DNA from: Bacteriovoracaceae bacterium
GTDB lineage: Bacteria > Bdellovibrionota > Bacteriovoracia > Bacteriovoracales > Bacteriovoracaceae
Assembly: GCA_016786485.1 (NCBI GenBank)
Contig: JAEUWD010000034.1
Location: 62,001 to 126,000, forward strand
DNA: 64,000 nucleotides
Reading direction: 5' to 3'
The translations under genes were made by a program, and so were the position numbers. The first letter of the stretch is position 1. The number at the start of each line of letters is the position of its first letter. Below the pieces are notes generated by a model. It was not told the DNA's origin. It saw only the letters and a program-made list of their open reading frames with translations, and searched no databases. Below are positions 10,880 through 16,702 of the stretch, one piece after another.

Positions 10880-12199
10880 TTATTTATCGTACTGTTTTAC
10901 ATCGTCCGGCGCTAAAATATATTTTTTTAGTCCCAGGCGATTAAAAATAAAATCTGGTGCACGAATTCGATAAAAAATTCCTGTTTCATGATTGACGGAC
11001 TTTAAAACGTTTGTTTGAGATAAAACTTTTGATGTCGCATCTCCCGCAGCGTATGGAATAAATAAATCATATGGAGCTTGTTTCGCTAAAAAATAATTAA
11101 TGATATGTTCGCGAAGAGCATCAATGTCTTGTGGATTAAGACTCGAAATAACAAAACTATTTGGGTATTGTTTTAAAAGAATTTTTTCTTTCAGTGGATC
11201 ATTCAATAAATCTTTTTTATTAAAAACGATCAGGCGTTCTTTATCTTTGATATGTAATTCATTCAAAACTTTATCTGTTACATCTAAATGTTTTTTGTAA
11301 TGGGGGTCAGAAGCATCACAAACGATGATTAAAAGGTCGGCATCAATCGCCGATTCGAGTGTTGTTCTAAAACCAGCAATAAGTGTGTTCGGTAAGTTTT
11401 GAATAAAACCTACTGTATCGATAAGAATCATCGGTGGTTTTGTATCCGGATTCAATGTTCGATAAGTTGAATCCAGTGTGGCGAACAATTTGTTTTCTTC
11501 TAGAACATGTACTTTACATAGACGATTCATCAGTGAAGATTTTCCAGCGTTGGTATAACCCACCAGTGCTGCAGTGACCGCTACATCTTGGCGTTTTTTC
11601 TTTTGTTCATTTCGACTAGTAGAAATATCTTCGAGTTGTCTTTTTAATAATTCAATTTTTTCGCGCACCATACGTCGGTCAAGCTCGATCTGTAATTCAC
11701 CTTCACCGCTTCGTACCCCTGTACTACCTTTTTGACGAGACAAGTGAGTCCAAAGAGTACTGAGTCGAGGTGCTAAATATTCAAGACGGGAGATTTCGAT
11801 TTGAATTTTGGCATCTCTGGTGTGAGCGTGTTGCGCAAAGATTTCTAAAATAATATTTACTCGGTCTGCAACTTCGAGACCGGTAATTTCACGGATGTTA
11901 CGAACTTGGCTGGGCTTTAACTCAAAATCGAAAACTAATAATTTTGAACCATCAGCTTTCGCTGCTTCCGCGATCTCTTCGATTTTTCCATGCCCAAGTA
12001 CTGTTGCTGGATCAATATCTTTTTTATTTTGAACAAATTCTTGCCCTGCTTCTAAACCAAGTGTTCGCAACAACTCACGAAGCTCAGCGAGCGAAGCTTT
12101 TGTTTCGCCCATGTCAGTGTGGCCATCAAGTTTTGGGGTTACTATCGAGACGAGCGTGGCTTTGTACTCGGTGGTAATTTTAAATTCATCAAAATTCAT
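10880..12199 (-). CDS. hflX: GTPase HflX
   Basis: A 439-residue ribosome-splitting GTPase. The N-terminal HflX domain (residues 15-130) includes ATVLGHGKIEEI and NIILEIFAQHAHTRDAKIQIE. A long coiled-coil linker with the family glycine-rich GSTGVRSGEGE motif follows. The G domain starts with LVGYTNAGKSSL (G1), has DTVGFIQNLP (G3) and FNKKD (G4). Its ATG overlaps the panC stop in an ATGA arrangement, so it is translationally coupled to the CoA operon. E. coli HflX also rescues stalled or heat-damaged ribosomes. Confidence 0.95.
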   Translation of the reverse strand: MNFDEFKITTEYKATLVSIVTPKLDGHTDMGETKASLAELRELLRTLGLEAGQEFVQNKKDIDPATVLGHGKIEEIAEAAKADGSKLLVFDFELKPSQVRNIREITGLEVADRVNIILEIFAQHAHTRDAKIQIEISRLEYLAPRLSTLWTHLSRQKGSTGVRSGEGELQIELDRRMVREKIELLKRQLEDISTSRNEQKKKRQDVAVTAALVGYTNAGKSSLMNRLCKVHVLEENKLFATLDSTYRTLNPDTKPPMILIDTVGFIQNLPNTLIAGFRTTLESAIDADLLIIVCDASDPHYKKHLDVTDKVLNELHIKDKERLIVFNKKDLLNDPLKEKILLKQYPNSFVISSLNPQDIDALREHIINYFLAKQAPYDLFIPYAAGDATSKVLSQTNVLKSVNHETGIFYRIRAPDFIFNRLGLKKYILAPDDVKQYDK

Positions 12200-13059
12200 T
12201 TAATTCTCACGGTGATGTTATCTAATAATCGGGTTTGATTTATTTGATATACTCCCAGAATAACAAAATTTTTGCAATTTTTCTCGGGCGGCATAAGTGT
12301 GACAGCATCTCTTATTTCAAGATAGTTAAAACGCGGATCGGCTTTTACCAGTTTTTGACTATGCTGCACCGTTTTTTCGTAGTGGTTCTTTAATAAATAA
12401 TCTTTTAACTCAACTAAGCTGTTGCGAAGCTTAAGCGCTTGAATCTTTTCATCCGAGTTTAAGTATTGATTGCGACTAGACATGGCCAAGCCACTTTTTT
12501 CTCGCCCAATAGGGATGGGGGAAATTTTTATCGGGAGTGCCAAGTCTTCTACCATTTTTTTGATAATGGTGAGTTGTTGGTAATCTTTTTCACCAAAATA
12601 AGCAATGTTCGGTTTGAAAAGGGTAAAGAGGCGATAAACCACAGTGCAAACACCATCGAAGTGACCAGGTCGCGATTTACCTTCGATGATAGAATTTAAA
12701 GGTGAAATCGAAATAGTGGTCATAAAGTTTTTAGGATAAATCACACTTTCTTCAGGTGAAAAAATCACAACGTGTTTGTTTTTAGTTAATTTCATTTTTG
12801 CTGCTAAATCAGAAATTTTAGCAATATCACTTTCTAGTGTACGTGGATACTTCTGAAAATCATCTTTAGGCCCAAACTGTTTTGGATTCACAAAAATAGT
12901 AATAACGGAAATATCATTTTCCTTAATCGATTTTTTTAATAACGAAAGATGAGCATTATGCAAATTGCCCATAGTCGGCACGAGGCCAACTGTTTTTTTC
13001 TTTTTGTTTTTTACCCAATCGCTGTATTCAGTTAAGGTATCGAAAAAATAGACTGCCAT
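12196..13059 (-). CDS. panC: Pantothenate synthetase PanC
   Basis: A 287-residue enzyme that joins pantoate to beta-alanine using ATP. VPTMGNLHNAHLSLLKKS carries the HIGH-like ATP motif. EGKSRPGHFDGVCTVVYRLF and FGEKDYQQL form the pantoate/ATP site, and SSRNQYL is the KMSKS-like region. The family's length is about 280. It overlaps coaBC by one base (TAATG) and hflX by four. No panD (beta-alanine source) is present in the window. Confidence 0.96.
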   Translation of the reverse strand: MAVYFFDTLTEYSDWVKNKKKKTVGLVPTMGNLHNAHLSLLKKSIKENDISVITIFVNPKQFGPKDDFQKYPRTLESDIAKISDLAAKMKLTKNKHVVIFSPEESVIYPKNFMTTISISPLNSIIEGKSRPGHFDGVCTVVYRLFTLFKPNIAYFGEKDYQQLTIIKKMVEDLALPIKISPIPIGREKSGLAMSSRNQYLNSDEKIQALKLRNSLVELKDYLLKNHYEKTVQHSQKLVKADPRFNYLEIRDAVTLMPPEKNCKNFVILGVYQINQTRLLDNITVRIK

Positions 13060-14270
13060 TAATGAATCCTTGAATAGATAGCGTTGGCCAGATCCATTTT
13101 TGATAAGTGTGATTGTGTAACCACTTCTCCTGATTGAATGAAGTAATATTGATTTTCTTTTTCTTCAAAGCCTTGGCGCTGACCTTGAATGCCATTATTC
13201 ACAAAATTTCCGATAAGAAGATCAACCGGTTTATCACTCCATTTTTTTAAGAAAATATTTTTATCGCCAGTGGTTTCAGCAGCAAACCCAACAACCTGTT
13301 GCTTGGTTTTTTCCTTAAGGACTCCTGCTAAAATATCCGGTGCTAATTTGAAATCAAGTCGACCATTCATCGTGTTTTTTTTGATTTTACTGTTCACAAA
13401 TTCGAATTCCATATCGCAGAGAGCGGCTGATGAAATATAAATATCACAAAGTGGAAATTCCGCTTTAACGATGTCTTGGACTTCTTGAGTGGTATTGATA
13501 CGAGTTAGTTTAAAATGTGGATGACTCGTCAATAGGTCTAAATCTTTGGTCGAGTTCTGAGCTGCAATACAATGAACGTCATAACCTTCTTGCAGATATT
13601 TTTTACTTAAGCAATGGCCCGTAATGCCGCTCGATGGGTTTGTCATATAACGAACAGGATCAACTGCTGCAAGTGTCGCTCCAGCAGTGATCAAAACTTT
13701 TTTCTGATTAAAATTAAAACGATGAGTTTCTGTCAGTTCGATGATTTCAGTCACCTTGGCCAATTTACCTAAGCCTTCGTCACCGCAGATCATTTCACCA
13801 GCTTGAGTGGGGTGAATATAAGTATGAGTTAATTGCGAAAGGTTTTTGAGATTGTTTTGAACAAAGACATTGCCATACATTTCGACATTCATGGCAGGAT
13901 AAAAATGTTTCGGTGTTGTGGCAGGTAAAGCCAAGAACACGCTGGTTAGCAGATCATGCGCGCTTCCACTAACTAATTTAGACAAAGTGTTCGCACTCAT
14001 TGGCGCCATTAAAAAAAGTTCAGTTTGTTTGGCGATTTCGATATGTAGAACATTTCCGTTCAAGGCTGCGTAAGCTTTCTGATTGAAATCATCTTCTGGT
14101 AAATAAACTTGTTTCGCACCCAAGTAACGATAGGTATTGGGTTGAATGAATTCTAAAGCACCTTTCGATAAAACTACTTGAACTTCATGACCCAACTTCG
14201 TTAGTTCGCGAACCAAGTCATATGTTTTATAGGCAGAAATGGAGCCGGTAACGGCGAGTGTGATTTTCAT
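13059..14270 (-). CDS. coaBC: Bifunctional CoaBC: PPC synthetase / PPC decarboxylase
   Basis: A 403-residue bifunctional enzyme. The N-terminal flavin decarboxylase (CoaC) has AVTGSISAYKTYDLVREL, the active His in VLHIEIAK, APMSANTLSKL, PAMNVEMY, and the Cys in CGDEGLGKLA. The C-terminal synthetase (CoaB, from about 187) has VLITAGATLAAVDPVRYMTN and SSGITG. These are steps two and three from pantothenate to CoA. It lies one base after coaX. Confidence 0.95.
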   Translation of the reverse strand: MKITLAVTGSISAYKTYDLVRELTKLGHEVQVVLSKGALEFIQPNTYRYLGAKQVYLPEDDFNQKAYAALNGNVLHIEIAKQTELFLMAPMSANTLSKLVSGSAHDLLTSVFLALPATTPKHFYPAMNVEMYGNVFVQNNLKNLSQLTHTYIHPTQAGEMICGDEGLGKLAKVTEIIELTETHRFNFNQKKVLITAGATLAAVDPVRYMTNPSSGITGHCLSKKYLQEGYDVHCIAAQNSTKDLDLLTSHPHFKLTRINTTQEVQDIVKAEFPLCDIYISSAALCDMEFEFVNSKIKKNTMNGRLDFKLAPDILAGVLKEKTKQQVVGFAAETTGDKNIFLKKWSDKPVDLLIGNFVNNGIQGQRQGFEEKENQYYFIQSGEVVTQSHLSKMDLANAIYSRIH

Positions 14271-14271
14271 C

Positions 14272-14964
14272 TTAGTTTTCTTTGGTTGTTTGTTGATAAA
14301 TAAAGAGGAGAGACTTGAAATTTAATTCTTTATCGAGAACGGCAGTCTTGAAGATTTGTGAAAATTGTTCGGCACTTCCGCCAGTCAAAATGATTTTAGC
14401 ATTTTCAAATTGTGGCTGTGCCATGAAAGCTTCGTAAGTTAATTTGAGCGAACCTAAAATGGCTTCGTTTGTGCTATGAGGTAGTTGATTATGCTGATTT
14501 AAATAAGATTGGAAATCTCTGGCCGTTAGCGCCGGAAGGTTTTTTCCTTTTTGAAAACTCTCAAGCATCAATTCGAGCCCTGGATAAATATATCCGCCTT
14601 GAAAACCTTGTGGTGTGACCAAATCCACCGTTACGAAAGTTCCAGCATCGATCAAGAGAATATTTTCATTGAAATGGTGAAAGCAATAATAAGCTTGCGC
14701 CACTCGATCCGCACCCACCGTCGTTGTGTAGTGGAGTGGCATATCGAGAAATATTTTTTCTTGAATGAAATCTTTAATATTGATGATGTTGTTTTTATTT
14801 TCGTTAAGTGGGATGAAAGATTTTAATTCGATATTGGCGACGTCAGAAATAATGACATCAAAATCAACATTGGATTTGAAAGCTGTTTCTTTGTTCGGGA
14901 GTTCAAAAAACTTTGATTTGCAATTCGTATTCCCGCTATCAATCGTTAATAAATAATTTTTCAT
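14272..14964 (-). CDS. coaX: Type III pantothenate kinase CoaX
   Basis: A 230-residue ASKHA-fold kinase that phosphorylates pantothenate. Motifs in order: LTIDSGNTNCKSKFFE (phosphate 1), GADRVAQAYYCFH, NILLIDAGTFVTVDLV (phosphate 2), GGYIYPGLELML, and LPHSTNEAILGS. It is slightly shorter than the usual 250 or so residues. Its start lies 26 bases inside panB, so the two are coupled. Type III enzymes are generally not inhibited by CoA. Confidence 0.93.
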   Translation of the reverse strand: MKNYLLTIDSGNTNCKSKFFELPNKETAFKSNVDFDVIISDVANIELKSFIPLNENKNNIINIKDFIQEKIFLDMPLHYTTTVGADRVAQAYYCFHHFNENILLIDAGTFVTVDLVTPQGFQGGYIYPGLELMLESFQKGKNLPALTARDFQSYLNQHNQLPHSTNEAILGSLKLTYEAFMAQPQFENAKIILTGGSAEQFSQIFKTAVLDKELNFKSLLFIYQQTTKEN

Positions 14965-15766
14965 CTTTATTTAAACCTAAATTGAGGATTTGCGCGGACA
15001 AGTAGCTATCAATCGCACCTTTTTTCAGTTGATAAAAATTTGAAATAGGGTCACAGAAACTAGGTGGCGTGTCCTTGCCAATTTTCAATAGGTCGTTAAG
15101 CACTAGCACTTGTCCATCTGTTTTTGTGCCAGAACCAATTCCGATGGTGGGGATATTTAAATTTTCGGTAATTTGTTGGGCAATTTTTTTCTCAACACAT
15201 TCAAGCACAACAGCAAAACAACCAGCATCTTCAAGAGCTTTTGCTTCTTGAATTAATTTATCGGCTGAATTTTTATCTTTGCCGTGAGTATAGTAACCAC
15301 CTAATTCGTGCACAGACTGAGGAGTTAAACCAATATGACCCATAACGGGGATGCCAGTTTCAACTAAACGTTGAATGATTTGTAATTGAAAAGGATAGGC
15401 TCCTTCTAATTTAATCGCTTCAACGGCAGAAGTTTTGAATAATTTTGTCGCGCAGTTAATACCATCTTCGAAAGTTGAATAACTTCCAAAAGGTAAATCT
15501 GCAATAACGAATTTATCTGGAGCACCTCGCTTCACTGCTGAAGAAAAAATAATCATTTCTTCTAAGGTGACTTCGATGGTGGTTTTGTAACCAAGAACAA
15601 CATTTCCCACACTGTCGCCAACCAGAATCATATCGAGAATCGTTTCGTTTAAAAGCTGAGCTGTTTGATAATCGTAACAAGTTAGCATTTGCAGCGCACG
15701 CTGTTCATTAACTAGCTTGTGTTTCCGAATGATGCGAGTGTTTAATTTTTTGTTCATAATTTTCAC
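14939..15766 (-). CDS. panB: Ketopantoate hydroxymethyltransferase PanB
   Basis: A 275-residue TIM-barrel enzyme that makes ketopantoate from 2-ketoisovalerate. LTCYDYQTAQLLNE, MILVGDSVGNVVLGYKTT (metal-binding Asp), IKLEGAYPFQ, PVMGHIGLTPQSV, and IGIGSGTKTDGQVLVLNDLL are all family signatures. The frame can begin at GTG 15766, directly abutting the upstream stop, or at ATG 15757; coupling to the IlvC-like gene is likely either way. Confidence 0.95.
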   Translation of the reverse strand: MKIMNKKLNTRIIRKHKLVNEQRALQMLTCYDYQTAQLLNETILDMILVGDSVGNVVLGYKTTIEVTLEEMIIFSSAVKRGAPDKFVIADLPFGSYSTFEDGINCATKLFKTSAVEAIKLEGAYPFQLQIIQRLVETGIPVMGHIGLTPQSVHELGGYYTHGKDKNSADKLIQEAKALEDAGCFAVVLECVEKKIAQQITENLNIPTIGIGSGTKTDGQVLVLNDLLKIGKDTPPSFCDPISNFYQLKKGAIDSYLSAQILNLGLNKDEKLFIND

Positions 15767-16702
15767 TTAAAACAAAGTCGATTTTAATTCGTTATGGGTC
15801 TGAGTTAATTCCTGATCGGCCCAGAAATTCTCGATTTGTTTTTTAATAGTATTATAGTCTAATTTCTTCAATTTATCTTGAAATTTTCCTTGCTCAATTT
15901 CTTGCCAAATTTGATCTATTTTCTGCTCGAAATCGTCGTCAACCAGATGAGAAACGGATAAATGAGCTCCGAGCAATGCATTAGGACTAATTAAGTTGAA
16001 AAAATCTTTTGGACCAATTTTTATGAGTGTATCGACGATTAATTTTACTTCGTACCATGCTTCAAAATAAGCCAGTTCTTTATCAATGTTATGACTTCTT
16101 AACTTTTTATAAACACTATTGGAAGCGTATGGAATTAATGCGCAAAGTAATGTTTGCTCAGAGAAAAGATCGGCCATGGTTTCATTCTTGAAAGTGGTGG
16201 GATATGGACCAGAAGTAATACCTAAGCCAGCTGCCAATAATTGAATAAAATCCGAAGTTTGTTTTTTCTGAGTGGCATTGATTAATTCCAAACTCGAAAC
16301 AGCACCTAGCTTTCCTTTGGTCTCATATTGGTATCTTAATTCGCTCGCAATCGCCTTTGGTGCAAAGAGTGCGTGGTAAAATTGCGGAAATTTTTCTTGT
16401 AGCTTGTGTTCCATCATCGAAAAACCATGAGCGTAGAGCAGTGTCGCGCCGGTTTTAATGTTCGCAGCATTTTTTTGCAAAATTTCTAAATGTGTGTGAT
16501 CAGGAGTCAGAATCGCGATGTAGTCGTGATTCATTTTTTCAGCTGAGTTAAGTGTAATCGATTTGATTCCCCAGCTACTCAAAAGGGCTTGATGCTGCTC
16601 AGGTTTTCGAACGGCCACCATCACGTCCCAACCCGAATCTTTCAGGTTGAGGGTCCAGGCCTTAGCTTGGTTTCCCATTCCGATAATTAGAAGTTTTTTC
16701 AT
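15767..16702 (-). CDS. Ketol-acid reductoisomerase (IlvC)-like protein of the pantothenate operon; probable ketopantoate reductase
   Basis: A 311-residue class I KARI-type protein starting at ATG 16702 after GAGG; an upstream in-frame extension lacks a ribosome site. The Rossmann start is IIGMGNQAKAW. H92 (YAHGFSM), K116 (APKA), the Mg-binding pairs D178/E182 (DLFSEQ) and E214/E218 (FEAWYE), and S239 match class I KARI residues in kind and spacing. The second glycine-loop region reads NQAKA rather than the common SQGHA. It is first in ilvC-like - panB - coaX - coaBC - panC, and no panE is present. KARI enzymes are known to reduce ketopantoate, so that role is inferred; ordinary valine/isoleucine synthesis is the alternative. 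Confidence 0.82.
   Translation of the reverse strand: MKKLLIIGMGNQAKAWTLNLKDSGWDVMVAVRKPEQHQALLSSWGIKSITLNSAEKMNHDYIAILTPDHTHLEILQKNAANIKTGATLLYAHGFSMMEHKLQEKFPQFYHALFAPKAIASELRYQYETKGKLGAVSSLELINATQKKQTSDFIQLLAAGLGITSGPYPTTFKNETMADLFSEQTLLCALIPYASNSVYKKLRSHNIDKELAYFEAWYEVKLIVDTLIKIGPKDFFNLISPNALLGAHLSVSHLVDDDFEQKIDQIWQEIEQGKFQDKLKKLDYNTIKKQIENFWADQELTQTHNELKSTLF

Follow-up and report, generated by a model that had tools for sequence, protein, structure and literature searches.

A gene of the ketol-acid reductoisomerase (KARI) family in a predatory bacterium very probably encodes a dedicated ketopantoate reductase (EC 1.1.1.169) of KARI descent, a reading that draws its support from genome context. 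The gene lies in a window of 64,000 nucleotides (the whole stretch of DNA that was analyzed) from genome G000 (2.98 Mb, 98% complete). This genome belongs to family f1, which we infer to be the Bacteriovoracaceae, a family of predatory bacteria. A dedicated, panB-linked KARI appears to be new; the side activity of KARIs on ketopantoate is already known.

A KARI-family gene heads a pantothenate operon

The KARI gene is followed on the minus strand by genes of pantothenate and coenzyme A synthesis:

15767..16702, minus strand: KARI-family gene, candidate dedicated ketopantoate reductase (intact open reading frame from ATG to TAA, 311 aa)
14939..15766, minus strand: panB, ketopantoate hydroxymethyltransferase (TIGR00222, 269.3 bits, cut-off 207.55; also Pfam)
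14272..14964, minus strand: coaX, type III pantothenate kinase (TIGR00671, 75 bits, cut-off 58.2)
13059..14270, minus strand: coaBC, phosphopantothenoylcysteine synthetase/decarboxylase (TIGR00521, 275.5 bits, cut-off 219.7)
12196..13059, minus strand: panC, pantoate--beta-alanine ligase (TIGR00018, 263.8 bits, cut-off 212.75)
10880..12199, minus strand: hflX-like GTPase (named by eye from sequence)

Two start codons are candidates for panB, a GTG at 15766, right after the KARI stop codon, and an ATG 9 nt further on, at 15757. coaX overlaps panB, and panC shares 1 nt with coaBC. The hflX-like gene, which ends the overlapping run and stands outside the pathway, overlaps panC by 4 nt; an hflX-like homologue also follows panC in several relatives. 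A divergent YacG gene starts upstream of the KARI gene. Scanning for promoters and terminators gave no excess over shuffled sequence.

A sequence-only reading of this DNA had placed an ilvC-like gene at the head, followed by panB, coaX, coaBC, and panC, an order that the curated models and Pfam bear out. It had also reported panE and panD as missing from the operon. This is confirmed, and PanD (aspartate decarboxylase) was moreover not found anywhere in G000 in a genome-wide search, despite the presence of panB and panC. Across the family, PanD was detected in 60 of 129 genomes. The order coaX, coaBC, panC downstream of panB is conserved in most of the loci whose neighborhood was read, and panB lies directly downstream of the KARI gene in 77 of 80 loci from named relatives (the best 80 of 136 relatives).

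The protein is a divergent KARI with a complete catalytic set

The 311-aa product matches both KARI_N (82.2 bits, cut-off 20.6) and KARI_C (77.5 bits, cut-off 29.1) in Pfam, which together cover it, in agreement with its earlier description as a short KARI homologue. The E values (4e-23 and 1.7e-21), together with the conserved gene order, exclude chance as the source of this observation. The AlphaFold2 model has a mean pLDDT of 97.3, and KARI structures are its top matches. The seven catalytic residues named in the sequence-only reading (H92, K116, D178, E182, E214, E218, and S239, in protein numbering) are all present; the two domains and this set of catalytic and metal residues (H, K, D, E, E, E, and S) place the protein in the KARI superfamily. 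The score for ApbA, the PanE family domain, was below the cut-off (12.4 versus 22.2 bits), and Pfam found neither ApbA_C nor DUF2520 (PF10728, PanG) in the protein.

The protein nonetheless falls short of the curated ilvC equivalog models (TIGR00465, 157.7 versus 226.15; NF004017, 164.9 versus 336), whereas the canonical IlvC proteins of G062 and G120, used as a control, exceed both cut-offs. It is 23 to 28% identical to 11 canonical IlvC rows. Ketol-acid reductoisomerase was the nearest curated name for the divergent KARI genes in every case. A plasmid search with the window KARI gave KARIs about 29 to 33% identical to it among the 15 of 110 records listed.

The sequence could in principle be a decaying ilvC remnant that sits beside panB by chance. 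The loss of IlvD around the KARI fits such decay, but the pattern of conservation makes it an extremely improbable account. In an alignment of 49 family sequences, whose other members are 32 to 51% identical to the window protein, 23 columns are invariant; these include H92, K116, E182, E214, and S239, and D178 and E218 fall in columns that are at least 90% conserved. Among 48 family rows, 47 or all 48 retain the expected residue at each catalytic or metal position, the exceptions being a single N at position 178 and a single N at position 218. The old, separate group that these proteins form in the tree (see below) also argues against a remnant.

We looked in the family KARIs for lost metal ligands as a sign of lost isomerase activity and found none. 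All KARI catalytic residues being kept, acetolactate chemistry is compatible with the sequence, and the isomerase activity may be retained in the window KARI. Twelve positions distinguish the family from canonical IlvC (48 versus 11 rows). Eight of these (95, 118, 120, 177, 181, 216, 241, and 243) lie no more than four residues from a catalytic residue, as does position 112. The family's commonest letter and the canonical letter are, respectively, I and P at 118, S and H at 120, A and T at 177, S and G at 181, W and L at 216, N and T at 241, and L and E at 243. These changes beside catalytic residues hint at altered specificity, a hint rather than a proof because conserved positions cluster there anyway.

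Metabolic context in the window genome

A whole-genome profile search of G000 found no second KARI; a second weak match, on contig C41, was rejected, as its open reading frame reads as an adenosylhomocysteinase. Genome-wide searches likewise found no PanE (ApbA_C), no PanG (DUF2520), and no IlvD/EDD (PF00920). The sequence-only reading had proposed to look for a second full ilvC and for panE or panG, and none of the three was detected. It had also named an observation that would speak against it, a panE elsewhere in the genome combined with the lack of another ilvC; the genome does lack another ilvC, and no panE was found, so that this combination does not occur. In G000, which has both panB and panC, the window KARI is thus the only candidate found for reducing ketopantoate.

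G000 carries an acetolactate-synthase-like gene (L226:53-3126 on contig C65; NF006187, 818 bits, cut-off 509) adjoining an aldehyde-dehydrogenase-like gene, and acetolactate might be made in this organism. Together with the seven retained catalytic residues and the predicted KARI fold, this gene is what favors a true bifunctional KARI, one that would still convert acetolactate to dihydroxyisovalerate and would reduce ketopantoate only secondarily, like the enzymes of Buchnera and Bacillus subtilis. We consider this unlikely. IlvD is absent from G000 and from 104 of the 105 genomes that carry a divergent KARI, which makes dihydroxyisovalerate a dead end: the KARI product cannot become ketoisovalerate. 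With IlvD, PanE, PanG, and any other KARI lacking, G000 has no valine pathway for the window KARI to serve. The scores below the ilvC cut-offs, which the canonical proteins pass, and a genome that keeps a separate IlvC (G120, below) also count against bifunctionality.

For a dedicated ketopantoate reductase, the route would start from 2-ketoisovalerate, probably obtained by deamination of valine, presumably from prey, by an IlvE-like aminotransferase. G000 has an aminotransferase that closely resembles IlvE (225.3 bits, below the ilvE cut-off of 245.55), and a second aminotransferase match is L105. PanB would hydroxymethylate 2-ketoisovalerate to ketopantoate, and the KARI-like enzyme would reduce the 2-keto group of ketopantoate to give D-pantoate at the old KARI active site. 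It would probably use NADPH and Mg2+ and carry out the reductive half of the KARI cycle alone; substrate, cofactor, and metal are all predicted. PanC, CoaX, and CoaBC would then lead from D-pantoate toward phosphopantetheine.

The divergent KARI accompanies panB across the family

KARI_C gave 110 matches in 107 of the 129 family genomes. Five of these matches, three canonical IlvC and two of another type (L056 and L057), are left out of the family counts because their scores, sequence, and neighborhood differ. The canonical matches (E < 1e-54) come from G062, G120, and G121. IlvD was found in these three and in one further family genome, G122, which is 68% complete and has no canonical IlvC match. 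The two matches of another type (L056:3830-4834, on contig C26 of G061, and L057:3598-4605, on contig C42 of G069) represent a different KARI paralogue, located after a D-2-hydroxyacid-dehydrogenase-like gene and near genes of sugar-nucleotide type. In both, the catalytic K is replaced by R and the metal-site E218 by A, and in L057 E214 is also replaced by M.

The divergent KARI occurs in 105 of 129 family genomes, one per genome. All 105 have panB, and the divergent KARI is missing from all 11 genomes that lack panB. In 102 of the 105, the next gene downstream on the same strand is panB, and 9 to 143 bases separate the matched domains of the two; in G059, G060, and G061 the divergent KARI lies away from panB. 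Among the carriers, PanE is absent from 102 (G004, G042, and G058 also have an ApbA_C protein), and PanG is absent from all 105. Fisher tests gave 9e-10 and 3e-12, values that ignore common descent, so that the genomes do not each count as independent evidence.

The enzyme might instead reduce another 2-keto or ketol acid, with its adjacency to panB reflecting some other function. KARIs are described as promiscuous reductases in PMC4353338, and the three carriers with the gene away from panB fit this idea. It is hard to reconcile with the complete co-occurrence with panB, with the lack of any other detected known ketopantoate reductase in 102 of 105 carriers, and with the replacement of the gene by PanG-type genes in the same slot (below), and we regard another substrate as very unlikely.

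PanG-type genes alternate with the divergent KARI

Thirteen of the 118 panB genomes lack a divergent KARI. In 10 of them, a DUF2520 (PanG-type) gene lies directly upstream of panB (the match in G066 is just under the Pfam cut-off, and the domain check covered 8 of the 10 proteins). No genome has both a divergent KARI and a PanG-type gene. This alternation in the slot before panB is the strongest single argument for the function of the divergent KARI as a ketopantoate reductase. The PanG-type loci (L043 to L049 and L051 to L053) have the order panG-panB-panC-coaBC-coaX, with coaBC often split into two open reading frames; the different order suggests that the whole operon is of other origin.

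The remaining three genomes with panB and no divergent KARI are G020, G083, and G122 (75, 59, and 68% complete, respectively). The slot before panB is visibly empty in G020, and no KARI, PanE, or PanG was found in this incomplete genome. Its panB (L042:4005-4790) has no coaX beside it, and an aminotransferase-like gene upstream reads away from it.

Both types of KARI are present in G120, a canonical IlvC (488.8 bits, over the cut-off) together with IlvD on contig C92 and a divergent KARI (166.4 bits, under the cut-off) before panB on contig C193. The specialization toward pantoate suggested in the sequence-only reading is supported by this separate IlvC, by the family-wide link to panB, and by the alternation with PanG-type genes.

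panB-linked KARIs group together beyond the family

IlvD was detected in 8 of 368 genomes of the phylum. Outside f1, at least 11 of 40 listed KARI matches, in eight families, adjoin panB (nine by position relative to the listed panB matches, plus G301 and G302 by reading of the loci). In a tree of 81 rows, a branch with support of 100/97 separates 56 rows from 25, with canonical IlvC among the 25. The 56 comprise 48 rows of f1, among them the three KARIs located away from panB, together with 7 panB-linked rows from six other families; the last is L210 (f17), on a contig that stops too early to show whether panB follows. One of the seven panB-linked rows, L216, has a changed catalytic residue (H to T). 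A constrained topology that joined the f1 group, L210 included, to the canonical rows was rejected (p-AU, 0.00026), the groups having been named after the tree was seen. KARIs located apart from panB were seen in families f13, f14, f15, and f28 (L206 to L209, L213, L215, and L221 to L224); they come from genomes without detected IlvD and fall on the canonical side.

The tree is unrooted, and the panB-linked KARIs would form one clade if the root lies among ordinary KARIs; attraction between long branches is possible. We lean slightly toward the view that they are a single ancient clade, found in nine families of the phylum, whose members specialize in ketopantoate reduction and make up a further enzyme family for this step beside PanE and PanG. 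Isomerization of acetolactate would have been lost or much weakened through the near-catalytic changes, with every metal ligand kept because reduction alone would still need them.

Relation to known ketopantoate reductases

The side activity of KARIs on ketopantoate invoked in the sequence-only reading is established in several bacteria. PMC4306246 describes weak reduction of ketopantoate by ordinary IlvC in Salmonella and Escherichia coli and the rescue of an E. coli ilvC panE mutant by the ilvC gene of Buchnera; PMC11487621 describes B. subtilis IlvC as a third ketopantoate reductase next to two others. The window KARI would share its reaction and ancestry with these enzymes, and panE is absent from both Buchnera and G000. 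Theirs is, however, the IlvC of branched-chain amino acid synthesis, while the window KARI belongs to a pantothenate operon in a genome without IlvD. Class I IlvC (EC 1.1.1.86) in general has the predicted fold, both domains, and all catalytic residues in common with the window KARI, which differs in its low identity, its scores below the curated cut-offs, its near-catalytic changes, its link to panB, and the lack of IlvD.

PanG, first described in Francisella, belongs to a separate protein family defined by DUF2520, and the window KARI resembles it in the proposed reaction and in the slot before panB, which DUF2520 proteins fill in ten family genomes. DUF2520 proteins of the PanG kind include a ketopantoate reductase shown in Francisella (PMC4572677). 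The name PanG is also given to YkpB in PMC11487621, where YkpB is placed in one family with PanE, and that protein is therefore probably other than the Francisella one. PanE/ApbA would likewise share the proposed reaction, and PMC4353338 assigns both it and KARI to the 6PGDH superfamily; the window protein differs from it in its ApbA score below the cut-off, and ApbA_C was not found in G000.

No report of a dedicated panB-linked KARI or of such a clade was found in the open-licence literature searched. A term search of two recent papers on amino acid loss in these predators (PMC12724312 and PMC11988736) yielded no passages on IlvC or pantothenate. In a metabolic model of Bdellovibrio, from the same phylum, valine and pantothenate are among the required supplies (PMC7529429).

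Implications for the predatory family

The curated name ketol-acid reductoisomerase suggests valine and isoleucine synthesis in predators that lack IlvD, and it makes the ketopantoate reductase step wrongly appear unfilled. If our reading is true, pantoate would be made by a recruited KARI in most of one predator family. Retention of the KARI across dozens of genera without the remainder of its old pathway would amount to a natural experiment, in which one can ask which parts of a two-metal isomerase site reduction alone needs. G120, with both enzyme types, would allow their direct comparison within one genome.
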